Source: Rhodospirillales bacterium (GTDB lineage Bacteria > Pseudomonadota > Alphaproteobacteria > Rhodospirillales > Casp-alpha2). From it: a stretch of 64,000 nucleotides of DNA. The notes beneath the pieces are model-generated. The model searched no databases. It had not been told where the DNA came from and saw only the letters and a program-made list of their open reading frames with translations. Location: contig JAEPQO010000001.1 in assembly GCA_017640505.1 (NCBI GenBank), positions 450,625-514,624 of the forward strand, in the 5' to 3' direction. Position numbers and translations under genes: made by a program. Position 1 is the first letter of the stretch. Every line of letters starts with the position of its first letter. Below, piece by piece: positions 11,139 to 63,003 of this stretch.

Positions 11139-11537
11139 CTCTATCCCCTCTTTGTGTGTCAACCGAGACCCCGCGGTCATCATATGGCGATAACGCACCG
11201 TTGCACACATGGAATCGGGCTCCCCGGCGGACCCGCCCGCGGCCGTGATCACGCGGAGTTTACTAATTTAGTCACCATTCGTTCACCCGGTTCTCACCGG
11301 CCATTGACCAAACGCACGGAAGCGTGAGGTGCACCCTGTGATCGGTGTCACTTAAAACCAGATAATCCATTGTTTTTACTTAATTATTACCAATCACGGC
11401 CGGTTGATTCGGGTTTAAATGCGTGACCGCCGGAAGAGGCATAGATTGATCCTCAACGGGACGCGGTGTCCCGGCGAGATTTTGACCGGCGGCCCCAAGC
11501 GGCACCGGCCAAGAAGTACAAATGAAAGGAAATCATC
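11139..11537. other. 399-bp intergenic region, no gene found
   Basis: No supported coding frame lies here. It holds the divergent control regions of the TerB-like gene and of the small exported protein. Its middle (about 11265-11420) is AT-rich compared with the flanks. A near-palindrome ACTAATTTAGT lies at about 11261-11271. No clear -10/-35 pair was identified. Confidence 0.6.
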
Positions 11538-11807
11538 ATGACCATCCGTAAAACCATTACCGCATCCGCAATCGCCCTGGTGCTCGGCTTCGCCGCTTCG
11601 GCGCAGGCTGCTTCGGTCGATCACTACACCGAAGAAACCAATCCGGCGGTGTTCTCCACGTCCTATGGCGCCGTGAGTGCCGGTTCGTCCTGGGACAAGG
11701 TCGATCACTACACCGAGGAAACGCAGCCGGCCATCTTCGGTGAATTCAACCAAGGTGACACCAACACGGTCGACAACTCGGACGTTCTGCCGTACCAGCG
11801 CGGCTAA
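11538..11807 (+). CDS. Small exported protein with duplicated VDHYTEET motif
   Basis: The 89-residue protein begins MTIRKTITASAIALVLGFAASAQA, a clear Sec signal peptide cut after AQA. The mature part is 65 residues and carries two 28-residue repeats, each starting VDHYTEETxPA(V/I)F. At DNA level 23 bases (11616-11638 and 11700-11722) repeat with one mismatch. The ribosome-binding site is AAAGGA. A strong terminator follows within 60 bp, so the gene is a monocistronic unit of its own. I do not recognise the family. Acidic composition and repeated Tyr/Glu suggest a periplasmic or surface binding role, but that is a guess. Confidence 0.8.
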   Translation: MTIRKTITASAIALVLGFAASAQAASVDHYTEETNPAVFSTSYGAVSAGSSWDKVDHYTEETQPAIFGEFNQGDTNTVDNSDVLPYQRG

Positions 11808-11838
11808 CGGCGCCCGCGGAAATCGCGGAAACAAAAAG

Positions 11839-11868
11839 ACGGCGCCCCGTAAAACGGGCGCCGTTTTT
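11839..11868 (+). terminator. Intrinsic terminator
   Basis: Arms ACGGCGCCC (11839-11847) and GGGCGCCGT (11856-11864) form a 9-bp GC-rich stem with an 8-nt loop, followed by TTTTT. It ends the transcript of the small exported protein. Confidence 0.9.
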
Positions 11869-11935
11869 CTTTGCGGTTTAAGTGGATTTTGTTGTCTTCC
11901 CTTCCCACGCAACCGGCTTCGCGCTAAGAGGAAGC

Positions 11936-12949
11936 ATGCGGATTTCGATGCACCCGGCACTATTCCCTGTTCTTGCCGCGATCTTGTGGACCGTTACGGT
12001 TCCCTCGGCTGCCGCGGGGACGTGGACGCTCAATGTCGAAAACGACCGTATTGCCAACACGGACAGACATTACACCAACGGCGTCAGACTCGGCTGGGTT
12101 TCGGAAGCCGAAGACGGCGAGCATCTGCCAGAGGTCCGCGACGTTCTGCAGATGCTGTATCCACTCGCCGATGTCCGTGGCGGGCGTCTCGGCCTGGAAC
12201 TGGGTCACAATATATATACGCCTGCCGACACCGAGGCGCGGACGCTGATCAGTGACGACCGCCCCTATGCGGGTTGGCTCTACGCGTCGGGGTCGTTGTA
12301 TGCGGAAACCGGCAAGGGCATCGGCGACCATTTCACCGAAACGCTCGACAAGATGGCGCTCGAAATCGGCGTGGTCGGTCCGGCGGCGCTCGGCGAACCG
12401 GTGCAGAACGAATATCACAAGTTGATCGGGGTCGCGACGTCGAAGGGCTGGGATAACCAGCTCGACAACGAACCGGGCATCAATTTGATCGGGGAGCGAA
12501 AGTGGCGCCACAAGGCGCTCAGGTTCTATAGACTCGAAGCGGACGCGATTCCGCATGTCGGGGCGTCGTTGGGCAATGTCTACACCCATGTGAACGGGGG
12601 TTTCACCTTGCGCGTCGGCCAGGAACTCTATGTCGACTACGGGCCGCCGCTGATCAGGCCGAACCTCAGCGGTTTCGGCGCCATCAATCCGGCCGAAAAA
12701 TTTTCCTGGTACGCGTTCGCTGGTGTCGACGGGCGCTGGGTGCTCAGAAACATTTTTCTCGACGGCAATACATTCTCGGACAGTCACAGTGTCGACAAGG
12801 AGGCGCTGGTCGGTGATTTCGTCGCCGGCGTCGCGATTACCTATAGAAACGTGCGGCTCGCCTTTACGCATGTGATGCGCACCAAGGAATTCGAGACGCA
12901 GTCCTCTTCCGACCGTTTCGGCGCGATCACCCTTTCGGTCCGTTTCTGA
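11936..12949 (+). CDS. LpxR-like lipid A deacylase, outer-membrane protein (DUF2219)
   Basis: From ATG 11936 (AGAGGA upstream) the protein is 337 residues. Residues 1-27 are a signal peptide ending PSAAA, so the mature protein begins GTWTLNVENDR. LpxR removes the 3'-acyloxyacyl group of lipid A at the outer membrane. Expected catalytic features are present: Asn36-Asp37 (mature 9-10, the same as Salmonella LpxR N9-D10), YTNG after it, DDRPYAGWLY, and VQNEYHKLIG with Gln157 and His161 spaced as Q118 and H122. The C terminus ends in Phe as for a beta barrel. It may tune lipid A. Confidence 0.87.
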   Translation: MRISMHPALFPVLAAILWTVTVPSAAAGTWTLNVENDRIANTDRHYTNGVRLGWVSEAEDGEHLPEVRDVLQMLYPLADVRGGRLGLELGHNIYTPADTEARTLISDDRPYAGWLYASGSLYAETGKGIGDHFTETLDKMALEIGVVGPAALGEPVQNEYHKLIGVATSKGWDNQLDNEPGINLIGERKWRHKALRFYRLEADAIPHVGASLGNVYTHVNGGFTLRVGQELYVDYGPPLIRPNLSGFGAINPAEKFSWYAFAGVDGRWVLRNIFLDGNTFSDSHSVDKEALVGDFVAGVAITYRNVRLAFTHVMRTKEFETQSSSDRFGAITLSVRF

Positions 12950-20608: not shown

Positions 20609-21856
20609 CTAAGGACGAATGACCGGTGTCGGAACCGGTACGATGAACTTTCCGCCGTCCTTTATGAACGGAGATTTATCGAGAAAGAAGTCGAGGTAAT
20701 TCCACGCCAGCAGAAGCGCGTGCGTATACCCGCCGGCCAGGAACTCGTCGTCGGACACAATAGGGATGTGTGTGCCCGGTGTGACCTTGCCGATCTTGAG
20801 ATCGTTGTTCTCGGCAACGACGTCAATCAGCGACGTATCGGCCTGGATGAAATTCAGTAGCGTGTTTCCTTTTGCCGGCGCACCGTAGGCAGCGATTTTT
20901 GCACCGTTGGTCTTGAGCCCACGCATCAGCTCGACCAATGCGTCACCGGTTTCGCGGACACGTTCGGCAAATCGTTCATAAGCATCGATTTGCCCGACGC
21001 CCCATGCTTCTTCTGCGGCCTGCATGTCGGATATGCTTTGGTGTGTCTCATAGCCGGCCTCGGCGCGGCAGACGAACAGCCTGAGCGCAGGCCCCGACGC
21101 CCCGACTTCGGCGCGCTCGACCCGAAAGGCCCGGAGACCGACATCGGCGAATAGATGCTCCAGCGGCGCCAGGCTTAAATACGAAAGGTGCTCATGATAG
21201 ATCGTATCGAAGTATAATTCCTCGATCATGTCGACGAGATAAGGAAACTCGATGACGAACACGCCATCGTCGTCCAGCACGTTTCGCACGCCGGCGGCGA
21301 ATCCGGCGATGTCGTCCACATGGGCAAAGACGTTCGTTGCCGTCACGATTTTTGCCGGGCCGTGCGATGCCGCAATGTCGCGCCCGCACTGTTCGTTGAA
21401 GAACCGTTCGACAATTTCGAACCCGCGTTCGCGTGCATACTGCCCCGCGCTCGACGGTTCGACGCCAAGCGTCCGGTACGTGCTTTTCGGATAGCAATTG
21501 AGCGTAATGCCGTCGTTGCACCCGACATCGATCACAAGGCTGTCCGGGGGCGGCTGCAAAAGCGCGATGATGCTGTCGATCATGCCCTGATAGTGATTGC
21601 ATAGCGCGCGTGACGTCGACGACAGGTAGACATAATCGTCGAAGATGTCCTCGGCGGCAACCACGTCAAGCAGCTGTGACAGCCCGCAGGTTGCGCAATG
21701 ATAGACGTCGAGCGGGAAGCGTTGTTCTGCTGCCGTTTCGCTCGCGGCAATGAACGCGTTAGATGGCGGCTGTTCGCCGAGGGAAAGATACCGGACAAGG
21801 TCGCTGCCGCCGCAGATTCGGCAGGTTTCCCGTTTAATGGCGTGGTAATTCGACAT
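20609..21856 (-). CDS. Sugar C-methyltransferase, NovU/TylCIII family
   Basis: The 415-residue enzyme carries the N-terminal zinc-site domain (CRICGG at residues 12-17, then YHCATCGLS), followed by a SAM-binding domain with VIDVGCNDGI. A conserved YHEHLSYLS catalytic segment and the C-terminal NAD-fold-like domain with GAPAKGNTLLN complete the family. These enzymes add a methyl group to carbon 3 or 5 of NDP-4-keto-6-deoxy sugars. Suitable 4-keto sugars would come from the rfbFG or rmlB dehydratases in this locus, so a branched methyl sugar is expected in the polymer. Start at ATG 21856. Confidence 0.9.
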   Translation of the reverse strand: MSNYHAIKRETCRICGGSDLVRYLSLGEQPPSNAFIAASETAAEQRFPLDVYHCATCGLSQLLDVVAAEDIFDDYVYLSSTSRALCNHYQGMIDSIIALLQPPPDSLVIDVGCNDGITLNCYPKSTYRTLGVEPSSAGQYARERGFEIVERFFNEQCGRDIAASHGPAKIVTATNVFAHVDDIAGFAAGVRNVLDDDGVFVIEFPYLVDMIEELYFDTIYHEHLSYLSLAPLEHLFADVGLRAFRVERAEVGASGPALRLFVCRAEAGYETHQSISDMQAAEEAWGVGQIDAYERFAERVRETGDALVELMRGLKTNGAKIAAYGAPAKGNTLLNFIQADTSLIDVVAENNDLKIGKVTPGTHIPIVSDDEFLAGGYTHALLLAWNYLDFFLDKSPFIKDGGKFIVPVPTPVIRP

Positions 21857-23534: not shown

Positions 23535-24512
23535 TCACTTCGGTGCCTGGTCGGCGTGCGCAGTGTACCAGTCGGCAAGAACCGGGAAACCATCTGACAG
23601 CATGAATTTTGGCTCGTAGCCGATAGCCGTGATTTTTGAAATATCTGGACAACGCCTGGGCGTGCCGCCTTTTTGCAAGGGTTGCGGTACAAGTTCCAGC
23701 GTGCGCCCGAAATAGGCGCCGACCATATGCGCGACGTCGCGGATGGTGATCTCTTCCGGTGTGCCGATATGATAGATCTCGCCTGAGGCGCCTTTCTCGG
23801 ACATCAGGATCACACCGTCGATAAAGTCGTCGATGTAGTTGAAGGCACGGGTCTCAAGGCCCTCGCCCTGGATCGGAAACGGCAATGGATCTGCGTCGGA
23901 GGCTTCACATAGTTCTTTCATGCGCAGGACGAACTGCGGCAGCACATGTTCCCAGCCCATGTCCGGGCCATACACGTTGTGCGGCCGGAAAATCTGCACT
24001 TTCTCCATGAACCGCGTTGCCATGTGCAGTGCCATCATCTCACCGATGATCTTGCCGGAGCCGTACGAGTAGCGCGGGTTCGTTGGGTCGGGGACGACCA
24101 TCTGGACGTCTTCCGGCGTCGGTACGACGGCGGGCGTCTGATAAACCTCGGACGTCGATGCATAGATCAGTTCGGCGACATCGTGTGTCCGGCACCCGTC
24201 AATCACGTTTGCCATGCCTTTCACGCCGACATCCAGCACGAGGTCCGGTTTCTCGTAAAAAAATTCGGTACCGTTGACGTAGGCGAGATGCCAGACGGCA
24301 TCCTGTCCAGCGAGGGCATCGGCGACGGCGTCGGCATCACGGATATCGCCATGCACAAACTCGATATCATCTCTGATATCGTCCAGCCGCGTCGCACGGC
24401 CACGGGAATCGTTATCGAATACCCGTACGTCATGCCCGTCATTGACGAGCCGGCGAACAAGTGCTGACCCGATGAAGCCAGTACCGCCTGTGACAAGGAC
24501 ATTTTGGCTCAT
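23535..24512 (-). CDS. NAD-dependent sugar epimerase/dehydratase (extended SDR)
   Basis: The 325-residue protein has the Rossmann motif VTGGTGFIGSALVRRL, the serine-rich STSEVYQTP segment and YGSGK, which is the YxxxK catalytic pair. It is of the NDP-sugar epimerase/4,6-dehydratase class. Its ATG overlaps the stop of the upstream UDP-sugar dehydrogenase by 4 nt (ATGA), so they are one operon. Together with that enzyme and the DegT aminotransferase it may form a uronic acid or amino sugar branch, exact product unknown. Confidence 0.88.
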   Translation of the reverse strand: MSQNVLVTGGTGFIGSALVRRLVNDGHDVRVFDNDSRGRATRLDDIRDDIEFVHGDIRDADAVADALAGQDAVWHLAYVNGTEFFYEKPDLVLDVGVKGMANVIDGCRTHDVAELIYASTSEVYQTPAVVPTPEDVQMVVPDPTNPRYSYGSGKIIGEMMALHMATRFMEKVQIFRPHNVYGPDMGWEHVLPQFVLRMKELCEASDADPLPFPIQGEGLETRAFNYIDDFIDGVILMSEKGASGEIYHIGTPEEITIRDVAHMVGAYFGRTLELVPQPLQKGGTPRRCPDISKITAIGYEPKFMLSDGFPVLADWYTAHADQAPK

Positions 24513-25732
24513 GCCATACCCTTAGTGACGTCGGCCGATATCGGTTTGGTGATGTGATTCCAGACATCGAACACCGGCTTCCCTTTGACGTCCATCCCTC
24601 GGTAATCGGAATGCGGGGCACATACGACCAAGACATCGCTTTGTTCGATGACGCCGTCCAACGGCGAGAGAGCGGGATCGTTCAGCACGTACGGGTCGGT
24701 GGTCAACACGTTCTTTGCCCGCATCATCAGGTGCTTCTTCATTTTGTAGCTGAGCGAGGCGCGGATGTCGTCGCTTTCTGCTTTGAACGCCATGCCCAGC
24801 AAGCCGACCGTCACGTTGGCGAGATCGAACTTGGCCGCAATTTTTTCGATCACATATAGCACGAGCCCTTCGTTCACCAGCATTGCCGAGTTGCCGAGTG
24901 AAAACTGGTTCCGCGCGAATGCGGCAATCTGCATGGTGTCCTTGAACAGACAGGGGCCGGCGGTGAATCCCGGACGCGGCATGTGCCGCGCGCGATCATA
25001 CCCGTATGTCATGCCGAAATGGACCTTGGAATAATCGGCGCCCGCCTGATCGGCGACCATGAAGAACTGATTGGCGATGGCGAACTCGATGTAACGGTAG
25101 GAGTTATCAAACAGCTTGACGAACTCGGCCTCAAGCGGCGGCAGTTCGACGATCTCGGGTACAACCGGCATGAAGAACTGCTTGGCTTCGGTAATGGCAG
25201 CGGCGGATGTGCCGCTGACGATCTGTGGTAACTCGGCCAGTTCCTTGATGGCGCGCCCCTGCACGGATCGTTCAGGGCAGAACGAAACGCGTGTCTTCCT
25301 GCCACAATCCTCCAGGTAACGATGCAGCCAGTCCGTCGTGCCCGGATAAAGCGTCGAGCGCAACACGATCAGATGCTCGTCTGTGATATACGGCAGCAAC
25401 GTATCAATGGCCGATTTGACCTCGCCATGAGACGGATTGAGAAACTCGTCGACCGGCGTACCGATTGTAATCACGAGAACACCGGTTGGGGTGATATCGG
25501 CGGGATCCGACGTCAGTGTCAGACGATCGTTATCGAGAGCATGCCGGAGATATTCGTCTGCCCCGTCATCAACGAAAGGCATTTTGCCGGCGGCGATGGT
25601 CGCCAGCGTTTCTTCATTGATATCGTAGATTTGTACCCGTGATCCGGCGCTGGCAAATGATAGCGCCATCGGAAGGCCGACATGGCCGGCACCACCGACG
25701 ATGCAAATATCTGCGTATTTCCTATCCGTCAT
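24509..25732 (-). CDS. UDP-glucose/GDP-mannose dehydrogenase family protein
   Basis: From ATG 25732 the enzyme has 407 residues. The N-terminal NAD domain starts DICIVGGAGHVGLPMALSFASAG. The central domain holds FTAGPCLFKDTMQIAAF, whose Cys is the active-site nucleophile of the family. The C-terminal UDP-binding domain has GLLGMAFKAESDDIRASLSY. It makes a uronic acid sugar nucleotide by two-step oxidation at C6. The substrate (UDP-Glc, UDP-HexNAc or other) cannot be settled. An earlier ATG at 25762 is possible but not needed by the family. Confidence 0.9.
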   Translation of the reverse strand: MTDRKYADICIVGGAGHVGLPMALSFASAGSRVQIYDINEETLATIAAGKMPFVDDGADEYLRHALDNDRLTLTSDPADITPTGVLVITIGTPVDEFLNPSHGEVKSAIDTLLPYITDEHLIVLRSTLYPGTTDWLHRYLEDCGRKTRVSFCPERSVQGRAIKELAELPQIVSGTSAAAITEAKQFFMPVVPEIVELPPLEAEFVKLFDNSYRYIEFAIANQFFMVADQAGADYSKVHFGMTYGYDRARHMPRPGFTAGPCLFKDTMQIAAFARNQFSLGNSAMLVNEGLVLYVIEKIAAKFDLANVTVGLLGMAFKAESDDIRASLSYKMKKHLMMRAKNVLTTDPYVLNDPALSPLDGVIEQSDVLVVCAPHSDYRGMDVKGKPVFDVWNHITKPISADVTKGMA

Positions 25733-25836
25733 TGGTTTCGTTTCTATCCTTCGGTTGGTCATGCGGGGCGCGGCTTGATGGCCCTGCATAATGCCAGGTT
25801 AACGGGATGAAAACCCTTTTCGGGACGCACCCCGGG

Positions 25837-27000
25837 TCAGTCGTCCCCCATCAGGTGCGGGCTACTCGGTACGTTGATGATGCGGTTGTAAAGGTCCCGG
25901 GTGACCGTCAGGTCCATCTTTGGGCAGTCTGCAAACATTGGCAGGTCCGAAATCGGAACCCAGGCGGCGCGGGCGCCGATGCCGGCGGCGTTGGCGGCTT
26001 CGAAAAAAGCAACCCGGTCGTTCTCGTAACCCGGTTCAAGCAGCAGGATATTGATCCAGTAGTTGCTGATGCATTCGGGCGGCTCGTTGACGTGGCGAAT
26101 TCCGTCGATGTCTGCGAAGGCCTCGGCGTACCGTGCCGCCAGCTTACGCTTTTTCTCGAGGTAGCCGGGCAGGCGCTGCATCTGACCGCAACCGACCGCC
26201 GCATTGATGTTCGGCATCCGGTAGTTGAAGGCGATTTCGTCGTGCGTGAATTCGTATGGATGCGGAACGCGCGATGTGGTCGTTATGCGCCGCGCCCGGT
26301 CCGCAAGTTCGTCGTTATTACACAGTATCGCGCCACCGCCGCCGGTGGTGATGATCTTGTTGCCGTTGAAACTGAGCGCCGAGAGGTAGCCGCGATTGCC
26401 GACGTGCCTGCCCTTGTAGAACGAGCCCAGGCCCTCGGCGGCATCTTCGATCAGCGGGATCCCGAACTCGTCGCAGACGGCGCAGAGCGCATCCAGATCG
26501 CTCGGATGACCGAACGCGTGCATGCACATCAGGGCGGCGATGCGCCGTCCCGTCGACTTGTTGTACAAGGCACCGTCCCGGCGTTCCGAGATACGATGCA
26601 GGTACGCGGCGATTTTTCCGGCATCAACGCCGAAAGACGTTTCCTCGGCATCGACGAAATGCGGGACAGCGCCGGTGTAAGCAATGGCATTGATCGAGGC
26701 AATGAACGTCAGGGCCGGCGCCAAAACCTCGTCACCCTGTCCAATGCCCATCATGTGAATAATGGCGTGCAACGCCGCGGTGCCGCTGACCGTCACGGCG
26801 GCATGTTTGACGCCACAGAACGCCGCCAGTTCCTCTTCGAACTGGGTCACGTATTTGCCGTGATAAGATACCCAGCCTTCTTCGAGGCAACTGACCACCA
26901 TTTCCGCTTCGGCACTCCCAAAGCGGGGTTCGTGCAGCGGCGCGGGCGGCGGCGCGATCTCGCAAAGCGTCGTAACGACTCGTTCAATGTCCAGTGTCAT
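25837..27000 (-). CDS. DegT/DnrJ/EryC1/StrS family sugar aminotransferase
   Basis: The 387-residue PLP enzyme contains [53 protein letters not shown] and [15 protein letters not shown], in which the Lys after GN binds [20 protein letters not shown] is also typical. It transaminates a 4-keto or 3-keto NDP sugar to an amino sugar. It lacks the Fe-S cysteines expected of RfbH-type E1 enzymes, so it is unlikely to make a 3,6-dideoxy sugar by that route. It lies 21 bp from purH and close to the sugar dehydrogenase. Confidence 0.92.
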
Positions 27001-36699: not shown

Positions 36700-37647
36700 T
36701 CAGAGACCCGGCGCGAACGTGGCCTTACAAAAATTCAGCATGCCATCTATTTCCGTTTCCGCCGGCGTCGAGGGACGGAAGCCGGTCGCGACGAGGGCAT
36801 GGTTGTCGATCTGCAGGGGCGGTTCGTCCGGGCCATCCCCGGGGGGCGGACCGGAGAGGCCGATTTCTGGGTCGATGATGGCGCGGGCACGTTCGCGTAT
36901 TATCTCCGCCATCCGGCGCACGGTCATGCTTTCGCCGCGGCTTAAATTCAGCACGGTGACGGGTGTGGACGGCGTCCCGTCTCCGAGAAAATGACTGACC
37001 GCGCCGGCAACGTCGGTCAGGGGAATGAAATCCCGCCACTGCTGGCCGCTCGACGAAAGTGTCAGGGTCCCGTCGCGGACGGCCTGGCGGCAAAGATCGT
37101 TCACGAGCAGTGTCCAGCGGCCGGCGCCCGCGTCCGCCGGTGCGCCGAAACCGTTCGAGAGCCTCAGGATGAGGGACTGCATGCCGTCGCCGGCCGCGGC
37201 GGCGGCGAGGTCTTCCGATTGGCGATGGGCGTCGGCGTACCCGTTCTGTGGGTCGAGCGGTGTCGTCTCGTCGATGGTGCCGGCAAGTTTCCCGTACACA
37301 TGCACGGTGGAGAAATAGATGAACTGCCTGACGCCGGCCTGTCCGGCGGCTGCCAGGGCGCTGCGTGTTAAATCCACCGTCCGGCGGACGGCTGCCGCGG
37401 GATCATCGGCGAACTCGGTCTCGTTGGGTGCGGCAAGATGCAGGATGGCATCGGCGCCGACACATAGGGCAGCGAGATCACGGCCCCAGCTCAACCGCCC
37501 GGCGGCATGCTGGTCGCGGGCCCATTGCGGTACGGTGTCGCCCTGGCGCCGCGTCGATACGCGCACATGCTGCCCGGCTGCCATCAGCGCCTGAACAACT
37601 CGACCGCCGACGTAACCGAACCCGCCGGTGACGACGACGTGCTTCAT
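36700..37647 (-). CDS. NAD-dependent epimerase/dehydratase of the CDP-sugar branch
   Basis: The 315-residue SDR has VVTGGFGYVGGRVVQALMAAGQHV. The usual YxxxK is replaced in the expected region by NGYADAHRQSED, so Tyr is present but the pairing residue is H-R and not K within YxxxK. The active site may therefore be altered. It follows the cupin epimerase by a 4-nt overlap, in one unit with rfbF and rfbG, and is the best candidate for the final 4-keto reduction to a CDP-6-deoxy sugar. Confidence 0.75.
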   Translation of the reverse strand: MKHVVVTGGFGYVGGRVVQALMAAGQHVRVSTRRQGDTVPQWARDQHAAGRLSWGRDLAALCVGADAILHLAAPNETEFADDPAAAVRRTVDLTRSALAAAGQAGVRQFIYFSTVHVYGKLAGTIDETTPLDPQNGYADAHRQSEDLAAAAAGDGMQSLILRLSNGFGAPADAGAGRWTLLVNDLCRQAVRDGTLTLSSSGQQWRDFIPLTDVAGAVSHFLGDGTPSTPVTVLNLSRGESMTVRRMAEIIRERARAIIDPEIGLSGPPPGDGPDEPPLQIDNHALVATGFRPSTPAETEIDGMLNFCKATFAPGL

Positions 37648-38096
37648 GCCGGCGGCCAGGTATGCGGGATCGCGGGGTTGTCCGGGTCGAGCCGCTCCGC
37701 CTCGTCGGGATCGTGCGGCAGCGACGCGCAGTTCGCGATGATCGACGTCGTTCCGGAAAGCCCCCGGAAACCGTTCCAGATTCCCGGCGGAATAATGAGC
37801 AATGCGTAGCTGTCCGGCTGTTCTGCACCGAGCGTGTAGGTTTCAAGCGTCCCGTTGCTTGCGCTGCCGGGCCGGGCATCGAACAGCACGACCTCGACAA
37901 GGCCACGCGGTACGGCGAGCTGCATCGTCATCCGCGTATGCTTGCGCCATGCTTTTACGGCGCCGGGTTCGATACAGGTAAAGTACGCTTCCCCGAAGCC
38001 GGCGAAACCACCCGAGTCGTTTCGCAGCATGTGCAGGATCGGCCCACGGCTGTCCGGAATGATACGGAGTGGCCGGTGGACGACGCCGTCGATCAT
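37644..38096 (-). CDS. Cupin-fold sugar 3,5-epimerase-like protein (RmlC-related)
   Basis: From ATG 38096 (overlapping the rfbG stop as ATGA) the protein has 150 residues. It has LHMLRNDSGGFAGFGEAYFTC and PGAVKAWRKHTRMTMQLAVP, with the WxxH cupin motif of short dTDP-4-dehydrorhamnose 3,5-epimerase family proteins. It is shorter than RmlC itself (about 180). In this operon it should epimerise the CDP-4-keto-6-deoxyglucose made by RfbG. Confidence 0.8.
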   Translation of the reverse strand: MIDGVVHRPLRIIPDSRGPILHMLRNDSGGFAGFGEAYFTCIEPGAVKAWRKHTRMTMQLAVPRGLVEVVLFDARPGSASNGTLETYTLGAEQPDSYALLIIPPGIWNGFRGLSGTTSIIANCASLPHDPDEAERLDPDNPAIPHTWPPA

Positions 38097-39163
38097 TCGC
38101 CGCTCATGTAGGCGTCGATCTGCCGGCTGCTGGCCGTATAGGCGTCGGTGCCGCCGAGCACGGACTGATACCAGACGGCGCATTCCCTGATCGCACGATC
38201 GACTGACCATCTCGGCGCCCATCCCAGCCGGTTTCGGGCCTTGTCGATGCTGAGGTGCAGCAAGGTTGCCTCATAGGCCTGGTTCGGCAACTGGTCGACG
38301 ATGACCTCGCCGCCGCCCCAATCGGCGACGAGTTGCTCCGTCAGCTGGTGCACGGTACGGACCGAATCTTCGCCGGGACCGAAGTTCCATGCGCCACGGT
38401 AACGTATCGGGTCTTCCAGCAACTTCGCGGCCAGGCACAGGTAGCCGCTCAACGGTTCAAGCACGTATTGCCAGGGCCGTGTCGCGTGCGGCATCCGGAT
38501 CCGGATCGGCTGGCCGTCTTTCAGAGCACGGATGCAGTCCGGAACGATCCGGTTGTCCGCCCAGTCGCCGCCGCCGATGACGTTCCCGGCGCGGGTCGTC
38601 GCCGCGCCCAGCTTCTCGTTGGCATCGAGATAGGATGCTGCGTAGGCCTTGAACGCGAGTTCCGTCGCAGCCTTGGATGCGCTGTACGGATCGAGCCCGC
38701 CAAGTTCGTCGGTCTCGCGGTATCCCCAGTCCCATTCCTTGTTGAGGTAGCATTTGTCCGACGTGATGAAGACGAGTGCGCGAACCGACGGCGTATCGCG
38801 GAGCACATCCAGCAGGTTCACGCCACCGCCGAAGTTCGTGTCGAACGTCAGCTTGGGGCTCTCGTAGGATTTTCTGACGAGCGACTGCGCCGCCAGATGA
38901 AAAACGATCTCCGGCTTCGCCGCGTCGACGATTTTCTGCACGTCGTCACGGTTCCGGATATCGCCGTCGTGGTGCGTGATCCGGTCCGCCAGGCCGAGCA
39001 GCGTATAGTGCGGGCTTTCCCCCTCGGGCGGGTGCGCGAAGCCCCAGACCTGGGCGCCCAGTTTCGTCAGCCAAAGGGCAAGCCAGGATCCCTTGAATCC
39101 GGTGTCGCCGGTGATCAGGACGCGGCGTCCGCGAAAGGCTTCAGGGTCGAACGGCAAATTCAT
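38093..39163 (-). CDS. rfbG: CDP-glucose 4,6-dehydratase
   Basis: The 356-residue enzyme forms CDP-4-keto-6-deoxyglucose. ATG 39163 overlaps the rfbF stop (ATGA). The sequence GRRVLITGDTGFKGSWLALWL is specific to this family and is followed by FITSDKCYLNKEWDWGYRE and YSASK, the catalytic YxxxK. Also present is RAGNVIGGGDWADNRIVPDC. Length matches RfbG (about 355-360). Confidence 0.95.
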   Translation of the reverse strand: MNLPFDPEAFRGRRVLITGDTGFKGSWLALWLTKLGAQVWGFAHPPEGESPHYTLLGLADRITHHDGDIRNRDDVQKIVDAAKPEIVFHLAAQSLVRKSYESPKLTFDTNFGGGVNLLDVLRDTPSVRALVFITSDKCYLNKEWDWGYRETDELGGLDPYSASKAATELAFKAYAASYLDANEKLGAATTRAGNVIGGGDWADNRIVPDCIRALKDGQPIRIRMPHATRPWQYVLEPLSGYLCLAAKLLEDPIRYRGAWNFGPGEDSVRTVHQLTEQLVADWGGGEVIVDQLPNQAYEATLLHLSIDKARNRLGWAPRWSVDRAIRECAVWYQSVLGGTDAYTASSRQIDAYMSGE

Positions 39164-39948
39164 TTCCAGTTTTTCCACGGCGCTTGATCGCTGTCCCACA
39201 GCCCGGTCAGATACTTGAAGTCGCGATAGGTATCCATGCACTGCCAGAAGCCGTCATGGTCATACACCATCAACTGCTGGTCGGCGACCAGCTTGCGCAG
39301 CGGCACGTCCTCCAGCACGAGGCCGTCACCGTCGGGCAGGTAATCGAAAATTCCCTTGTTGAAGACGAAGAAGCCGCCGGAGATTCTGCCGCCTGTCGCC
39401 TGTGGTTTCTCGTTGAATTCGAGCACCTGTCCGGTGTCGTCTGATTCAAGCTCGCCGAAGCGGCCGGGTGGCCGGACGCCGGTGACCGTGGCGATCTTTC
39501 CGTGCGCTTTGTGAAAGGCAACAAGACGTTCGATGTCGATATCGCTCAGTCCGTCGCCATAGGTCAGCATGAAGATGTCGTCGTCCTCAACATACTTGCG
39601 GACCGCTCGCACGCGGTCGCCGGTCATGGCGTGGAGTCCCGTTTCCGCAAGCGTCACGGTCCAGTCTTCGCTTTCGTTATGATTCTGGATCTCGACGAGC
39701 GACTTCGGCTGACCGAGGGTCAGCGTGAAATCATTTGTCAGCATGTCATAGTTGATGAAGAAGTTCTTGATGACGTGTCCCCGGTAGCCGAGACAGAGCA
39801 CGAACTCATTGAACCCGAAAGCAGCGTAGTTCTTCATGATGTGCCAAAGAATCGGGCGGGTGCCGATGGGGATCATCGGCTTCGGTATATCCTCGGCAAC
39901 ATCCCGGATACGGGTGCCCTGCCCGCCGCACAAGATTACGGTTTTCAT
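39160..39948 (-). CDS. rfbF: Glucose-1-phosphate cytidylyltransferase
   Basis: The 262-residue enzyme makes CDP-glucose from CTP and glucose 1-phosphate. The start MKTVILCGGQGTRIRDVAED carries the nucleotidyltransferase loop, followed by PKPMIPIGTRPILWHIM, MLTYGDGLSDI and RVRAVRKYV. Typical length is 257-262. It is the first gene of the CDP-sugar unit. The 119-bp AT-richer gap upstream may hold a promoter. Confidence 0.96.
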   Translation of the reverse strand: MKTVILCGGQGTRIRDVAEDIPKPMIPIGTRPILWHIMKNYAAFGFNEFVLCLGYRGHVIKNFFINYDMLTNDFTLTLGQPKSLVEIQNHNESEDWTVTLAETGLHAMTGDRVRAVRKYVEDDDIFMLTYGDGLSDIDIERLVAFHKAHGKIATVTGVRPPGRFGELESDDTGQVLEFNEKPQATGGRISGGFFVFNKGIFDYLPDGDGLVLEDVPLRKLVADQQLMVYDHDGFWQCMDTYRDFKYLTGLWDSDQAPWKNWK

Positions 39949-50069: not shown

Positions 50070-51080
50070 TCAGGCCTTCTTGCCGATAACGTCGAACAGC
50101 GCGCCTTCGCGGGCGATGGTGCCGAGCCATGCAAGTTGCGTGACCGCCCGCTGATAGCGCGTTCCTGGCGACGTCTGCTGGAACAGGTTTTCGGCATCCT
50201 CGCCATCGGTGCCGAGAATGGCCGGCGATGCGTTCAGATACTCGACATTGTTTTCGCCAAACCACCCGAGGACTTCGTCCAGCGAATGCCAGGTCTCGTG
50301 CGGATTGTAATACTGGTCGGCGATCCAGATCGCCGCCTTGCGCTTGTCGCGAATCCGCGAGCGCACGACGAAATCGATATTCGGGCCAAGCAGGCCGATC
50401 AGCTTGGAGCGGATCAGTGTCGGCAGCCGTGCCGGACGATTGTATAGCCCGACCATGATGATGCCGCCGGGCTTGAGCTTCTTCACGATCTGCCCGAAGG
50501 CGCGCCGTGCATCGAACGTGTGGTGCAGCACGCCATGCGAGATGACGATGTCAAAGCTGTTGTCCTTGATCGCCAGGTTGAAGATGTTCATCTGCGCGAA
50601 CGATGCCCGCGTCAACGCGTTGCGTTGCTTGTGCTCGACGGCCAGACCGAGGCTCGCCAGCGACATGTCGATGCCGAGCACGTGATTGTTGTTGAGCTGC
50701 AGGTAATGCGACAGCTGTCCGGTGCCGCAGCCGCATTCCAGGACCGTCTTGTTGTAGCCGATGGCGTCCAGCAGGTTCTTCGAAAAGCTGTTGGCGTGAC
50801 CCTTCGTTACCAGCTCGCCGAACTCCTCGAGACCTTCGTAACTGGGGAACGGGTTTTCCTCGTAGAACGAGCGCACCTTCTCGGTGACGTCCTTGCCTTC
50901 GCCGGGGCTCGGCGCGAACAGGGACGGAATGCCGTTGATGATGGGAAACGTCTCGCCGGTTTCGGTGCAGCGGAACTGATCGCCTTCCTGTACCAGCGAC
51001 GCGGTCTCGCTCGCGCCCGGGGCGCGCAGCTTGCTCAGGATACGGTCCGAAAACAATGACGTTTGCGCAACCGTGCTCAT
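50070..51080 (-). CDS. SAM-dependent methyltransferase with N-terminal Trm112-like segment
   Basis: From ATG 51080 (overlapping the carbamoyltransferase stop as ATGA) the protein is 336 residues. Residues 30-60 (FRCTETGETFPIINGIPSLFAPSP) resemble a Trm112-like zinc-ribbon insert. The methyltransferase fold has VLECGCGTGQLSHYL, FDIVISHGVLHHTFDARRAFG and LKPGGIIMVGLYNRP. The partner relation with the carbamoyltransferase and SGNH proteins implies decoration of a surface sugar or a secondary metabolite. Confidence 0.87.
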   Translation of the reverse strand: MSTVAQTSLFSDRILSKLRAPGASETASLVQEGDQFRCTETGETFPIINGIPSLFAPSPGEGKDVTEKVRSFYEENPFPSYEGLEEFGELVTKGHANSFSKNLLDAIGYNKTVLECGCGTGQLSHYLQLNNNHVLGIDMSLASLGLAVEHKQRNALTRASFAQMNIFNLAIKDNSFDIVISHGVLHHTFDARRAFGQIVKKLKPGGIIMVGLYNRPARLPTLIRSKLIGLLGPNIDFVVRSRIRDKRKAAIWIADQYYNPHETWHSLDEVLGWFGENNVEYLNASPAILGTDGEDAENLFQQTSPGTRYQRAVTQLAWLGTIAREGALFDVIGKKA

Positions 51081-52870
51081 TGTGCGGCCTTCCGGAGCAC
51101 GAAATTGCCGAGCGCCAGCATGTCCATTTCGGTTGCCATGAAGCAGCGATAGGCATCTTCCGGCGAACACACGACCGGTTCGTCGCGGACGTTGAAGCTG
51201 GTGTTGACGAGAACGCCGTTGCCCGTGCGTTGCTTAAAGGCGCTGATCAGATCGTAAAAGCGTTTGTTGCTGTCCGGCGTGACGGTCTGGATACGCGCCG
51301 AATAATCGACATGCGTGATCGCCGGCAACTTGGCGCGGACAACGTTCAGCCGGTCGAGACCGACCCGCGCCTTGTCGTCATCGCTGAGTTCGGTCCGGTC
51401 CTCCTCGCGCACGGGTGCGACGATCAGCATGTAGGGACTTTCGCCGTCGAACTGGAAATGCTCGGCCGCATCCTCCTTGAGCACCGCGGGGGCGAACGGG
51501 CGGAAGCTCTCGCGGTACTTGATCTTCATGTTGAGGGTCTTCTGCATGCTGGGTGATGCCGGGTTGCCGAGGATCGAGCGGTTGCCGAGGGCGCGTGGCC
51601 CGAACTCCATGCGGCCCTGAAACCAGCCGACGATTTCGTCCGCGGCCAATGCATCGGATACCGTCGAAATCAGCGCGTCGTCCTCCAGCCGGTCGTAAAC
51701 GGCGCCGTACGAGTCCAGAACCACGCGGATTTCGTCGTCGCCGTAGGCCGGTCCCAGATAACCGCCCTGCATGGCGTCGTGGCCGTTCGAACGCGCCGGA
51801 ACCCGTTCGTCGCCAAGCAGGTTGGCGGCGGCGAGTGCGATTCCCAGTGCCGAACCGGCGTCGCCGGAGGCAGGTTGGATCCAGATGTTCTCGAACGGAC
51901 CCTCACGCTGGATCAGTCCGTTGGCGACACAGTTGAGCGCTACGCCGCCGGCAAGGCAAAGGTTCTTCGCGCCGGTCATCCGGTGCGCCTCTGCGCAGAC
52001 GCCCATGATGAGTTTTTCGGCGACCGCCTGAACCGAGCGCGCCACATTCATGTGAAAATCGGTCAGCGGATCGGCGGCGTCCCGGCGCGGTTCGCCGAAC
52101 AGCTTGGCGAACTTGTCGTTGGTCATGGTCAGGCCGGTCGTATAGTTGAAGTAAGACATGTTCATGCGGAACGAACCGTCATCCTTCACGTCGAGCAGCT
52201 TTTCCATGATCAAGTCGGCGTAAACCGGCTCGCCATAGGGCGCCAGGCCCATGACCTTGTACTCGCCGTCGTTGACCTTGAAGCCGAGGTAATAGGTGAA
52301 CGCGGAATACAGCATGCCCAGCGAATGGGGGAAGCGGACTTCGCGGTCCAGCCGGATCTCGCGCCCCTTGCCGTAGCCGATCGATGTCGTCGCCCATTCG
52401 CCGACGCCGTCCATGATGACGATCGCGGCTTCGTTGAACGGTGACGGATAGAACGCGGCCGCGGCATGGGAATGGTGATGATAACCGAAAAGGATATCGT
52501 CCTCGGTGACGGTACCGCGATCGAGCTCGCTCAGGCCCTTGGCGATACGGCTCTTCTGAAGAAGCTTGTCCTTGACCCATACCGGAATGGCCTTTGCGAA
52601 CGAACCGAACCCGGACGGCGCATAAGCCAGATACGTTTCAAGCAGCCGGTCGAACGTCAGCAGCGGTTTGTCGTAAAACGCGATGTGATCGACCTCGTCG
52701 AGCGAGATGCCGGCCGCGTCCAGGCAATAGGCGGCGGCATGGACCGGCAGATCGGAATCGTTCTTCTTGCGGGTAAAGCGTTCTTCCTGCGCCGCTGCCA
52801 CGATCTCGCCGTCGCGGACGAGGGCCGCCGCGCTGTCGTGATAGAATGCCGAAAGACCGAGAACGATCAT
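51077..52870 (-). CDS. Carbamoyltransferase, NodU/CmcH/TobZ family
   Basis: The 597-residue enzyme transfers the carbamoyl group of carbamoyl phosphate to a hydroxyl via a carbamoyladenylate. The N-terminal Kae1-like domain has MIVLGLSAFYHDSAAALVRDG, EERFTRKKNDSDLPVHA and GYHHHSHAAAAFYPSPF, whose histidines bind metal. The C-terminal YrdC-like domain has FQGRMEFGPRALGNRSILGNP. A small DUF5989 protein and a SxtJ family protein precede it, the standard partners. Confidence 0.95.
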   Translation of the reverse strand: MIVLGLSAFYHDSAAALVRDGEIVAAAQEERFTRKKNDSDLPVHAAAYCLDAAGISLDEVDHIAFYDKPLLTFDRLLETYLAYAPSGFGSFAKAIPVWVKDKLLQKSRIAKGLSELDRGTVTEDDILFGYHHHSHAAAAFYPSPFNEAAIVIMDGVGEWATTSIGYGKGREIRLDREVRFPHSLGMLYSAFTYYLGFKVNDGEYKVMGLAPYGEPVYADLIMEKLLDVKDDGSFRMNMSYFNYTTGLTMTNDKFAKLFGEPRRDAADPLTDFHMNVARSVQAVAEKLIMGVCAEAHRMTGAKNLCLAGGVALNCVANGLIQREGPFENIWIQPASGDAGSALGIALAAANLLGDERVPARSNGHDAMQGGYLGPAYGDDEIRVVLDSYGAVYDRLEDDALISTVSDALAADEIVGWFQGRMEFGPRALGNRSILGNPASPSMQKTLNMKIKYRESFRPFAPAVLKEDAAEHFQFDGESPYMLIVAPVREEDRTELSDDDKARVGLDRLNVVRAKLPAITHVDYSARIQTVTPDSNKRFYDLISAFKQRTGNGVLVNTSFNVRDEPVVCSPEDAYRCFMATEMDMLALGNFVLRKAAQ

Positions 52871-54476: not shown

Positions 54477-55579
54477 GGTCTCGGCGTCCGGTAAAGATCC
54501 GAAATGGCGTCGTCGGGCCGGCCTAGCCGCTCGGATGACGCGTTGCCTGCGACTGCGACCCAGCCGTCCGCTTCGTCGGACCGATAGAACGCGTGCAGCA
54601 GACCGAGTGTCTTCAGGCAGTCCGTGCGGTCGACCGGATAGGAGGCTTCGCCGGTAAAGTCGGCGACGATGTCGCGGTACATTTCCGTGTGGCCGAAGCC
54701 GTAAACGGCACCGTGTCCCTCGATCCCTTTGAAGTCCTCGCTGTTCGCGGTACACGCGGCGGGGTCCGGTGTGAACACCTGCAGTTCATTGACGGCGATG
54801 CCGCCGATCTGCGCCATGCCTTCCGAGCAGACGAACGAGATCGAGGCCTCGAAGTCGTCGGGCCGCGCCGCGGTGGTGGATTCGAGCGTGCCCACCGCGC
54901 CGCCGGCATAGGCGAAGGATGCAACGGTCGTGTCCTCGACCTCGATGTCCGCACCCAGCGTCCGCATGGTGGCGTTCACTTTCTCGACCTCGCCGCCCAG
55001 ATGACGCAGCAGGTCGACATGATGGATCGTCTGGTTGGTCAGCGCACCGCCGTCGTGGGAAAACGTGCCGCGCCAGGGCGCCAGATCGTAATAACGCTGT
55101 GGCCGGCACCAGCGGAGCCGGACGGAAACGGTGCAGATATCACCGAGTTCGCCCGTCTCCAGCGCCTGTTTCACGCGCCGGACCGCCTTGTTGTAGCGGT
55201 TCTGGAACACAGGGAAGATGCGCCGGTCCGCGGCATCGGCAGCGGCGTAGGCCTTGTCCAGCTGTTCGGGCCGCATGAAGGTCGGTTTCTCCATGACGAT
55301 GTGCTTACCGAAATCGCGGATGACTTCCATGCCATGTTCGAAATGCATGCCGCTCGGCGTGATCACGGCGGCGATATCGATGCCGGGCACATCCGTGAAC
55401 ATCTTGCGGTAATCGGAAAACGCCGGGACGCCGAACTCTTCAGCGTACGCCTCGGCCTTTTCGATCTCGAGATCGCAGACGGCCGCCAGTTCGATACCGT
55501 CGACTTCGGCGATCGAGCGGCAGTGATGGCCGGCGATGCGGCCACAGCCGATCAGGGCGACTTTCAGGTTTTCGGTCAT
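54473..55579 (-). CDS. Gfo/Idh/MocA family oxidoreductase (2)
   Basis: The 368-residue protein starts at ATG 55579 (ATGA overlap). It has LKVALIGCGRIAGHHCRSIA, VMEKPTFMRPEQLDKAYAAAD with the EKP motif and GTFSHDGGALTNQTIHHVDLLRHLGG with the His. It differs from its neighbour in sequence, so it is not a recent duplication. WlbA/WbpB-type members of this kind oxidise UDP-GlcNAc uronic acid at C3, and a DegT enzyme in the cluster could aminate the product. Confidence 0.9.
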   Translation of the reverse strand: MTENLKVALIGCGRIAGHHCRSIAEVDGIELAAVCDLEIEKAEAYAEEFGVPAFSDYRKMFTDVPGIDIAAVITPSGMHFEHGMEVIRDFGKHIVMEKPTFMRPEQLDKAYAAADAADRRIFPVFQNRYNKAVRRVKQALETGELGDICTVSVRLRWCRPQRYYDLAPWRGTFSHDGGALTNQTIHHVDLLRHLGGEVEKVNATMRTLGADIEVEDTTVASFAYAGGAVGTLESTTAARPDDFEASISFVCSEGMAQIGGIAVNELQVFTPDPAACTANSEDFKGIEGHGAVYGFGHTEMYRDIVADFTGEASYPVDRTDCLKTLGLLHAFYRSDEADGWVAVAGNASSERLGRPDDAISDLYRTPRP

Positions 55580-57177
55580 GGGTTCAATTCGGTCCGTTCT
55601 ACGCTGAGCAGGGATGCCCACAGGTTGATGTCCGGCGGCGGGAACGCGTCGGACGCGCGACCGGTCCCCGCGTGATTAGCCTCTTCCGGCGGGTTCTGCA
55701 ATGCCTGCGCCAGCGCCCCGGCGCCGACGGATACCGGCGACAATCCCTTGGGCAGAATATCGAGCGCAATGCCGCCTTCGGGCACGAAGCGATATGTCGG
55801 CACGCCGCCCAGAAGACCCTCGAGCCCGGTGGTGCCGGTACAATATATAAGGGCCCGCATCGGCGGCAGTTCGGGAATGGGCGCGCGGGTGTACGTGAAG
55901 TTGTCGCTCTCGGTGACCGGATAGGGATTCAGCGGATGATCCTTGACGATAAACGGCTGTTCCGCCGACGCCAGCGGCCGACAGGCATCGATCATTTGGC
56001 GTGCGAACGACGGATTGTTCGAAAGGGCGAGGAACACCGGGCCTGTCGCATCGAAGCGCGGCAGTCCCTTGGTCCCGATGCGGTGCGCCCCGGCGACGGT
56101 CATGCGTTCCGGCGGAATGCCGCGGCCGGCCAGGTCGTCTTCGTATGACGGACCGTTCAGCAAAATGCGATCCGGAATGCTGTCGGGACCGTCCAGATTG
56201 GCGTCGGCGCCCTGGTTATACATGTGCCGGCCGACGACGGTGTGTTGATAGCCGAGCGTCCGGGTGCCATTCCGCTTCGCTGCCCGAGTAAAATCGCGTT
56301 CCCACGGATGGTTCTCCCACGGCCACGCGACCGTCTTCGGGTTTGCCGCCTTAAGCCACGCCGCGTGGCATGCGTTCTGCCAGTGCGTCATGGCGGCGCT
56401 ACCGCCGCTGCCTTCGATGTATTGGGCGCGCTCGATCAACCAGGCCGTCGCCGTATCGAAACCGGACGTATCCGGCGTCCAGCGCGCGAACGGCATATCG
56501 AGTGCGGCGCCGATGCCGCCCCAGGCATGCAGTGAATGGGTGCGGCTGTCGCGGGCGAGATCAAGCGCGTACCCGGCGCCGCAATCCGTGTGCATCAGCC
56601 GCCTGACGTCAGGCAGCGCACGCATCAATTCACCGAAATAGGCGTCGAAGCCCTCGGCATTGCTGTCCGGGTGTCCATAGACAAGAAGCCAGCTGGCCTG
56701 TGCCGGCGCCTTGCGATGGCGGCGAGTCCGCCACATGGCCACAAGCGAGCGGCCCGTGGCCCGTATCCGCGCCAGTATCCCCCGGCAAAAAAATCGGAGC
56801 CGCTTCGCGGCTAGCCCGGGGGCTGGTCCGGCGTTCACGCCTTGCAAAGATGACAAAGCCCGGAAAAGCCAGGGATCGCTACAGACGACGCCGGTATCGC
56901 CGGGTTCAGCAGCGAGATCACCGACCACGCGTACCCAAGCCAGCATGACACCAAAATCAGACGCATAGGTGCTCATGGTCGGCATATGTGCCAGTTCCGA
57001 GCCCGGTTGCGCCTGCAACTTCAGCGCCACGTCCCGCCAGTCCGCATATATTTCATCGAATGCCCGCTCAAGCCGGGATGCGAGATCGGGCAAGCTGGAG
57101 CGGCCATCGCCGCCGATGATCACGCATCTTTGCGCGGCTTCGCCGACACGGCGGTCATGTGTCAGTTGAACGGGCAA
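55576..57177 (-). CDS. Putative GT-B-like surface carbohydrate biosynthesis protein
   Basis: The 533-residue protein has a poorly conserved first half. The second half contains LGYQHTVVGRHMYNQ, ILLNGPSYEDDLAGRGIPPERM and VFLALSNNPSFARQM. It then has KDHPLNPYPVTES and YCTGTTGLEGLLGGVPTYRFV, the pattern of a GT-B donor domain like those in capsule and TIGR04326 surface carbohydrate proteins. I cannot name the donor. Its stop overlaps the start of the Gfo/Idh gene (2) by 4 nt. Confidence 0.65.
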   Translation of the reverse strand: MPVQLTHDRRVGEAAQRCVIIGGDGRSSLPDLASRLERAFDEIYADWRDVALKLQAQPGSELAHMPTMSTYASDFGVMLAWVRVVGDLAAEPGDTGVVCSDPWLFRALSSLQGVNAGPAPGLAAKRLRFFCRGILARIRATGRSLVAMWRTRRHRKAPAQASWLLVYGHPDSNAEGFDAYFGELMRALPDVRRLMHTDCGAGYALDLARDSRTHSLHAWGGIGAALDMPFARWTPDTSGFDTATAWLIERAQYIEGSGGSAAMTHWQNACHAAWLKAANPKTVAWPWENHPWERDFTRAAKRNGTRTLGYQHTVVGRHMYNQGADANLDGPDSIPDRILLNGPSYEDDLAGRGIPPERMTVAGAHRIGTKGLPRFDATGPVFLALSNNPSFARQMIDACRPLASAEQPFIVKDHPLNPYPVTESDNFTYTRAPIPELPPMRALIYCTGTTGLEGLLGGVPTYRFVPEGGIALDILPKGLSPVSVGAGALAQALQNPPEEANHAGTGRASDAFPPPDINLWASLLSVERTELNP

Positions 57178-60412: not shown

Positions 60413-61951
60413 TTAGCCGACGGGGCGGGTTTTTGCTATCGCCAGTTCCAGTGCATCCTGCCACTTTGGCAAATGCAGATCGAGATCCCGCCTGACCTTG
60501 GTTTGGTCGAGACGCGAATTTTTCGGCCGTGCCGCCGCGGTCACGAATGCGGACGACGGAATGCCGTCGACGGCGGACGCACGCACCTGATGACCATGAC
60601 GCCGTGCACTGTCGACGATGGCGGCGGCAAAATCGCGCCACGATGCCGCGCCGTCGGCCGTCAGGTGATATATGCTGGCACCGCCGCCCGTCTCCGGTAT
60701 GCCGGATTTCCATCGCTCGACCAAACGGATCATGGCGCTGGACAGTGAACCCACGTACGTCGGCGCGCCGATCTGATCGTCGACGACGTCCAGGCGGTCC
60801 CTCTCGGCGGCAAGGTGCAGCATTGTGCGCATGAAGTTTTTCCCCGTTTCGGCATACAGCCAGCTGACACGAAATACCAAAGCCTTGGCGCCGCTGCTCA
60901 AAAGCGCGTGCTCTCCCGCGCGTTTGCTTTTTCCGTAGACGTTGATCGGGTTGGTGTCGTCGTCCTCGCGGTAGGGGCGATCCAGTGTGCCGTCAAAGAC
61001 ATAGTCCGTCGAAAAATGCACGACGCGCGTACCGGCGGCCGCGGCGGCCTTGCCGATCACCCCGGGCGCGGTCGCGTTGACCGCAAAGGCGGCATCGCGC
61101 TCACTCTCCGCCTGATCAACGGCGGTGTAGGCGGCCGTGTTGAACAGAACGTCGGCGTCGGCGTCGATCCACTTCTGCCGCCAGGCGATTTCTTCCAGGC
61201 AGCCGATCCGTAGCCCCTGGCGGCGTTCGATCGCGGCAATGAAGTTTGCGGCATCAAGGAGCGAATGTTCGGTCCCCGCGTCCAGCCACGCATAGCCGCG
61301 GTTGAGCACTTCGACACCGAGCGCGCGTTCGCGCAGATAGACATTGTTCACATCCGTGATCTCGAGTTCGCCACGGCCGGACGGCCGGACGTCACGCGCG
61401 ATATCGAGTACCCGGTTGTCGTAGAAATATAGCCCGGTCACTGCGAGATTCGATTTTGGCTGCGCCGGCTTTTCCTCGATCGACCGGGCGAGCCCGTCCG
61501 CATCGATCTCGACGACGCCGTAGCGTTCCGGATCGCCAACCGAGTATGCGAACACGGTCGCGCCGGTCTCGCTGGCCGCGGCGGCCTTCAGTCGCGCCGA
61601 CAGGTTGCTGCCGAACAGAATGTTGTCACCGAGGATGAGCGTCACCGGATCGTTACCGACGAAGTCACGGCCGATGATAAAGGCCTCGGCAATACCGCGC
61701 GGCGCGTCCTGGACGGCGTACGAAATATTAAGCCCGAACGATGAGCCATCGCCGAAGAGCTCTTCGAAGCGAGGCGTATCGGCCGGTGTCGAAATGATCA
61801 GGATGTCGCGAATGCCGGCCAGCATCAGTACCGATATCGGATAGTAAACCATCGGCTTGTCGTAGACCGGGATCAGCTGTTTGCAGATCGGCCGGGTTGC
61901 GGGATACAGACGCGTCCCCGATCCGCCTGCGAGTACGATACCTTTTCTCAT
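60413..61951 (-). CDS. RmlA-RmlD chimera: truncated glucose-1-P thymidylyltransferase fused to truncated dTDP-4-dehydrorhamnose reductase
   Basis: This single 512-codon frame joins two rhamnose pathway enzymes. Residues 1-264 are Rml[62 protein letters not shown] and [12 protein letters not shown], where RmlA normally goes on for about 25-30 more residues. Residues 265-512 are RmlD from [18 protein letters not shown] onward, with STDYVFDG and YGKSK (Tyr339, Lys343). The first 55-60 residues of RmlD, carrying the NAD(P)H GxxGQxG loop, are missing. The junction (about 61150-61166) lies in a short GTCGGC tandem. RmlA is probably active; RmlD probably not. Confidence 0.9.
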
Positions 61952-63003
61952 GTCTTCCCCCGGCCCAGGCGTTGGCGCGCGTACTTCGTCTCGGCAATGT
62001 CACGGCACCAGTCCTGATTGTCCAGGTACCACTGGATGGTTTCGGCGAAACCGGTGTCGAAAGGTTTTTCCGGTTGCCAGCCAAGATCGTTCCGAGCGCG
62101 CTCGATACTCAGGGCATACCGGAAATCGTGACCCGGCCGGTCATCGACGAATGTGATCTGGCCCGCATAAGTCTGACCGTCGTGGCGCGCCTGCATGCGG
62201 TCCAGCGCCGCACAAAGCATGTGCACCAGATCGATGTTCTGCATCTCATGACCGCCGCCGATGTTGTAATTGTGGCCGGCTTGTCCGTGCCGTGCGGCAG
62301 CGATGATGCCGCGTGCGTGATCCTCGACGAAAAGCCAGTCGCGTACATTCCGGCCGTCGCCGTATACCGGCAGCTTCTTGCTTTCGATGGCGTTCAGCAC
62401 CATCAGCGGTATTAGTTTTTCCGGGAACTGGCGCGGTCCATAGGTGTTGGATCCATTGGTGATAACGGCGTCCATGCCATATGTCTTCACATAGGATCGA
62501 ACAAGCAGATCGCCCGAAGCCTTGGATGCCGCGTAAGGTGAGTTGGCGCGAAACGGGCTTTCCTCGGTGAATACGCCTTCGTCGATGGTGCCGTACACCT
62601 CGTCAGTCGACACCTGCACGTAACGCGGTGCCGTGCCCTTGTCGCGGCCGTATTCACGCACCGCCTCCAGCATCTGTGCCGTGCCCACGACGTTCGTTTC
62701 GATGAAAGCCGCCGGTCCGTCGATCGAGCGGTCGACATGAGTTTCCGCGGCGACATTGATGACAAAATCCGGTGCGTGCTCGGCCAGCAATGCGTCGACA
62801 AGCGGCCGGTCGCAGATCGAGCCATGCACGAACGTATGCCGCCCGTCACCCGCCATCGCTTCCAGGTTGCGGCGATTGCCGGCATAGGTCAGGGCGTCCA
62901 GCGTTATCACGTCTTGCCCTTGCCCAATCAGCATTCGCACGAGGGTCGACCCGATGAAACCGGCGCCGCCGGTCACCAGAAACGTGCTGCGCGGTTCACC
63001 CAT
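61948..63003 (-). CDS. rmlB: dTDP-glucose 4,6-dehydratase
   Basis: The 351-residue enzyme has [62 protein letters not shown] with the YxxxK, and [16 protein letters not shown]. These match RmlB throughout. It produces dTDP-4-keto-6-deoxyglucose. It overlaps the RmlA-RmlD gene by 4 nt. There is no full-length RmlC next to it. Confidence 0.96.

Follow-up and report, generated by a model that had tools for sequence, protein, structure and literature searches.

An in-frame rmlA-rmlD fusion in a Rhodospirillales rhamnose operon, with loss of the RmlA tail and RmlD cofactor loop and a possible origin in a 0.8-kb deletion

The window analysed here, a 64,000-nt stretch of the genome of a Rhodospirillales bacterium, features a minus-strand open frame at 60413-61951 that runs from ATG through stop with zero internal stops and joins, over 512 codons, the glucose-1-phosphate thymidylyltransferase RmlA (RfbA; PF00483/TIGR01207) to the dTDP-4-dehydrorhamnose reductase RmlD (RfbD; PF04321/TIGR01214), thus bearing out the in-frame fusion put forward in the original prediction. 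The RmlA part of this rmlA'-'rmlD gene (residues 1-266; 61154-61951, minus strand) is matched by TIGR01207 at 442.9 bits against a cut-off of 360.65, over residues 3-266 of the fusion and up to profile position 264 of 286, and the RmlD part (60413-61156, minus strand) is matched by TIGR01214 over residues 263-506, beginning at profile position 47 of 285 and scoring 280.1-281.6 bits, above the family cut-off of 224.05. The fused gene lies directly behind rmlB, the gene for dTDP-glucose 4,6-dehydratase (61948-63003, minus strand; TIGR01181, 427.5 bits, cut-off 365.1), which overlaps its start by 4 nt.

Intact counterparts of both partners were found in a database of 5.8 billion proteins, of which the best 120 hits, all cluster representatives, were listed for each search. 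The closest RmlD among these matches, P0002 (297 aa; TIGR01214, 319.4 bits), is labelled a Rhodospirillales MAG protein by its source and is identical to the fusion at each of the 247 residues that follow the junction, with the RmlD part corresponding to P0002 residues 51-297; the 50 residues that precede these in P0002 include a GxxGxxG loop (GAKGQLG, residues 7-13) that is absent from the fusion. The closest listed RmlA, P0001 (290 aa), is identical at 245 of 266 residues (92%); its residues 261-266 match the WIDADA found immediately before the junction and are followed by 24 further residues. Together the two proteins amount to 587 aa, in good agreement with the roughly 590 residues earlier expected for two complete enzymes, and a comparison with them confirms that the RmlA tail and the cofactor loop have both been lost in frame. 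No near-identical RmlA (best, 92%) appears among the best 120 hits of either protein search.

The junction itself, GTCGGCGTCGGCGTCG, spans 61151-61166 and has no second copy on either strand of the window. Codon 266 (GCC, Ala, 61154-61156) is common to both parents, so that RmlA extends to residue 265 or 266 and the crossover falls at codons 265-267 (61151-61159): the truncation of RmlA stands, but its end had been placed at residue 264. The break had further been assigned to a GTCGGC tandem suited to slipped recombination. The run is indeed present at 61151-61166, but most of it encodes Asp-Ala-Asp-Ala, residues that intact P0001 shares, and the tandem is therefore mainly RmlA's own sequence; slipped recombination within it stays conjectural.

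Compared with the RmlA family, for which 1fxo and 6n0u are solved structures, the fusion covers the core with its residues 1-266 and retains GGSGTRL, LGDN and WLD, which we take to be active-site motifs, whereas the C-terminal tail, judged by P0001, is incomplete by 24 residues that hold most of two helices predicted in the latter (264-273 and 278-289). Two tyrosines of this tail, Tyr279 and Tyr282, are each 98% conserved in the 124 closest listed relatives. The losses in the RmlD half lie at the opposite end: residues 1-50 of P0002, including GxxGxxG, are missing, and the domain has no start of its own and is placed behind RmlA. RmlD positions were mapped by alignment to the solved structure 1kbz through P0002, in which T315, Y339 and K343 of the fusion pair with T104, Y128 and K132, the catalytic triad described in two earlier reports (PMC9415975, PMC4832382). 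The same reports name Gly7 and Gly10 among the residues through which RmlD contacts NAD(P)H (PMC9415975, PMC4832382); both glycines are lost in the fusion, and the RmlD half is thus predicted to be dead as a reductase.

An AlphaFold2 model of the fusion, built from alignment A2 (28 rows), reached a mean pLDDT of 86.1, with low values at 11-31 and 221-250; the model of the control P0001, built from alignment A3 (8 rows), shares these dips, which are thus uninformative on the fusion. For the blocks 241-250, 251-260 and 261-270, pLDDT values of 51, 76 and 70 in the fusion compare with 62, 88 and 92 in P0001, and the helices at 264-273 and 278-289 of the P0001 model are missing from that of the fusion; as the two alignments differ in depth, these differences carry little weight. 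A first alignment, A1, in which the RmlD rows showed just 16-25% identity, was dropped. A Foldseek search against the PDB returned RmlA structures in all of the best 50 matches listed, covering the first half of the protein.

The claim that rhamnose synthesis should be blocked had been made subject to the absence of another RmlD, and the rest of the genome (3.95 Mb, 12 contigs, 98.55% complete) is in keeping with it: among 22 TIGR01214 matches the fusion alone exceeds the cut-off of 224.05, the next scoring 124.9 bits, so that no second complete RmlD was found by this profile. The broader PF04321, with its low cut-off of 27 bits, has 20 genome matches above cut-off, the fusion included. A full-length RmlD-like protein is encoded at 11430-12338 of locus L135, on contig C4 and some 12 kb past the rml genes, and with 124.9 bits against 224.05 its sequence gives no indication that it replaces RmlD. 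Nor was a second RmlA found with TIGR01207, which only the fusion passes (next-best genome match 63.5 bits vs. 360.65). For rmlC, whose presence elsewhere in the genome had likewise been raised, a TIGR01221 profile search gave 0 matches in the genome; in control genomes the same profile finds a match in 11 of 14 and one over its cut-off in 6 of 14. With PF00908 and a limit of E 1, the genome has a single RmlC-like match, a weak one at 37644-38222 on the minus strand (28-30 bits, cut-off 27), which has no NCBIfam match at E 1e-5.

Gene order was compared across 80 named and 49 unnamed loci, from which eight duplicates and four loci of the window itself had been removed by a hand list; 47 of the unnamed loci have an RmlA match, and most of these offer only about 1.5 kb of flanking sequence. 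Where rmlA precedes rmlD on the same strand by at most 1 kb, rmlC stands between them in 22 of 23 loci (17 of 18 named and 5 of 5 unnamed), and the median rmlA-rmlD spacing is 792 nt in the named and 793 nt in the unnamed loci, vs. 6 nt in the window. In another eleven named loci rmlA is likewise the upstream gene but lies more than 1 kb from rmlD, and ten of these have an rmlC match between the two. Over all 80 named loci, rmlD precedes rmlA in 34 (25 with the order BDAC, 5 DAC, 2 CBDA and 2 BDA) and follows it in 29, 11 of these with the genes more than 1 kb apart, a mixed picture that weakens the case for an ancestral B-A-C-D order. Of the same-family relatives, the two whose RmlA is most similar are G012 and G066 (72% and 70%). 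They resemble the window in that rmlB and then rmlA precede rmlD on the same strand, but carry between rmlA and rmlD, spaced 797 and 793 nt apart, an rmlC that passes TIGR01221 (257 and 233.5 bits, cut-off 155.75). From relatives such as these, which among the loci compared reach at most about 72% RmlA identity, we infer an ancestral B-A-C-D order and a deletion of about 0.8 kb. An in-frame loss of that size would explain together the lost rmlA tail, the missing rmlC and the lost rmlD start.

The original estimate of the deletion, about 300 bp, draws weak support from this comparison. It comes close to a scenario in which rmlA already lay directly before rmlD, rmlC was already absent, and about 225-270 bp were removed: the 24 and 50 lost codons plus a stop add up to 225 nt, and the sole exception to the rule above, locus L104 (one of the 18 named loci with rmlA at most 1 kb upstream of rmlD), has the two genes adjacent at a spacing of 278, which would fit a loss of about 270 bp. 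Set against it are the 22 of 23 such loci with rmlC in between and a separation of about 790 nt, as well as the want of a TIGR01221-type rmlC in this genome, for which a second event would be needed, and we regard a deletion of this smaller size as improbable.

We therefore favor, with confidence that is about evenly balanced, a model in which an operon of the order rmlB-A-C-D recently lost about 0.8 kb in a single in-frame deletion and the fused gene is the scar left behind. This event would have taken out the rmlA tail, the whole of rmlC and the first 50 rmlD codons, and would have happened in the cell itself, not during assembly. The exact frame, the clean residue-level crossover and the failure to find left-over pieces on the contigs all side with a real deletion. 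A search of the 12 contigs with P0002 for the lost RmlD start returned, apart from the fusion, four matches of 12-41 bits, and no leftover rmlC was found on another contig with TIGR01221 or PF00908.

The most substantial competing explanation is an assembly error, whereby the strain is intact for rmlA, rmlC and rmlD and a short, GC-rich near-repeat caused the assembler to lose about 0.8 kb. The existence in the database of an intact RmlD that is identical after the junction implies that the fused allele is either young or an artifact of assembly; the result by which the fusion was to have been refuted exists in part, as P0002 attests that a near-identical genome has the intact allele, without telling which assembly is correct. 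Further, the RmlB of the window has an identical database cluster, P0126, comprising 7 contigs (longest 2,409,266), and yet the 512-aa fusion is missing from the best 120 hits, cluster representatives all, in either search, as is any near-identical RmlA; as a representative the fusion would have ranked first. This counts both for an assembly error and against a real allele that has spread. The fused protein could nonetheless be hidden as a non-representative cluster member, for instance among the four member sequences (3 contigs, longest 515,428) of the P0002 cluster. Ribosomal RNA does not account for the lengths of the database contigs, since neither end of contig C4 (9,000 and 8,826 bases) has an Rfam match. 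On the other side, the join has produced a perfect frame and a clean crossover at the residue level, the 16-nt run is far below the overlap lengths that assemblers use, and neither rmlC nor a second RmlD start was found on the 12 contigs, so that we consider an assembly error possible but rather unlikely.

A third route, recombination of a foreign rmlB-rmlA with a resident rmlD, would be in line with the want of a near-identical RmlA among the listed hits, none lying on a contig of 515,428 as is the case for P0002, and with the fusion finding no match, at E 1e-20, in six of seven same-genus genomes. Base composition nonetheless is alike throughout, with G+C and third-position G+C of 0.61 and 0.74 in the RmlA part, 0.63 and 0.74 in the RmlD part and 0.61 and 0.72 in rmlB, and rmlB overlaps the fused gene as it would within one operon; such an exchange strikes us as more doubtful still than the smaller deletion.

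If the deletion is real, the consequences for the pathway can be predicted from the parts retained. The RmlD half is predicted to be unable to bind NAD(P)H, and dTDP-L-rhamnose would hence not be made, whereas the RmlA half, with its core and active-site motifs kept and two C-terminal helices lost, may still make dTDP-glucose. RmlA is described as a homotetramer in PMC9415975. For rmlC and rmlD, complementation of E. coli K-12 mutants with an EF-P rhamnosylation reporter has been used (PMC8184846). As RmlB is intact, dTDP-4-keto-6-deoxyglucose would be the furthest intermediate the pathway could reach, and the want of RmlC would by itself be enough to stop it there. That the frame stayed open is probably down to chance (1 in 3) and not to any usefulness of the chimera. 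That the fused protein is instead a working enzyme maintained by selection would accord with the open frame, the retained catalytic triad and RmlD substrate part, and a confidently modelled RmlD half, in which 20 of the 25 ten-residue blocks from residue 271 have pLDDT of at least 89; but the cofactor loop is missing, the identity to P0002 shows no sign of adaptation, and no such fusion recurs in 139 RmlA loci or among the best 120 database hits, all of which makes this a very improbable reading. Slighter yet is the chance of a chimera with a new function, in which the cofactor-less RmlD domain would bind dTDP-4-keto sugars and act, in place of the lost RmlA tail, as sensor or anchor, turning the operon into a dedicated supplier of dTDP-4-keto-6-deoxyglucose.

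The fusion appears to stand alone. A scan for in-frame fusions of RmlA with RmlD, RmlC or RmlB in 139 loci with an RmlA match, some of them overlapping, gave four hits, all of them the window's own gene; no family of such proteins is seen among the database matches listed, and no report of an RmlA-RmlD fusion appeared among the open-licence PMC papers listed. The bifunctional rhamnose enzymes of plants, NRS/ER, likewise combine more than one activity of the pathway in one protein, but enzymes of this type have complete domains, whereas both partners are truncated in the window's fusion. In plant NRS/ER, as set out in PMC9415975, epimerase and reductase activities are joined and both work. A singly seen chimera in which one enzyme lacks its cofactor site is best read as a loss of the pathway and not as a new kind of enzyme, and ordinary pathway loss is likely what the fusion represents. 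If real, it would be a young loss of L-rhamnose synthesis in which one deletion fused two enzymes and removed a third, and a natural case of a surface-polysaccharide locus whose 4-keto sugar has no rhamnose outlet. Cell-surface traits can change when rml genes are lost: in PAO1, an rmlC deletion mutant serves as an R2-pyocin-susceptible LPS-core control (PMC10714928). If the join is an assembly error, it would instead warn that a fused annotation can mask an intact pathway.

The 4-keto sugar had been proposed to become free for a C-methyltransferase in the cluster. That gene (20609-21856, minus strand; PF08421, PF13489 and PF08484, domains presumably typical of sugar C-methyltransferases) is some 39 kb distant from the fusion, and nothing that ties it to a dTDP sugar was found in the window. 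Nearer to it than the fusion are genes for a CDP-glucose 4,6-dehydratase (TIGR02622, 446 bits, cut-off 278.45) and a glucose-1-phosphate cytidylyltransferase (TIGR02623, 322.7 bits, cut-off 300.25) at 38093-39948 on the minus strand, a predicted second source of 4-keto-6-deoxy sugar. The weak RmlC-like gene at 37644-38222 overlaps the CDP-glucose dehydratase gene and is followed by an SDR gene at 36700-37647; judged by sequence, the two are possibly an epimerase-reductase pair for a CDP-6-deoxy sugar. In the vicinity of the C-methyltransferase, the minus strand at 23535-27000 encodes a LegB-like dehydratase (below cut-off), a nucleotide-sugar dehydrogenase and a LegC-family aminotransferase (25837-27000; 468 bits, cut-off 420). 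Elsewhere in the polysaccharide locus, a carbamoyltransferase gene (51077-52870, minus strand; PF02543, PF16861) adjoins a methyltransferase gene, and the minus-strand frame at 55576-57177, flanked by an oxidoreductase-like gene and an FkbM methyltransferase gene, encodes a 533-aa protein with no Pfam match at E 1e-4.
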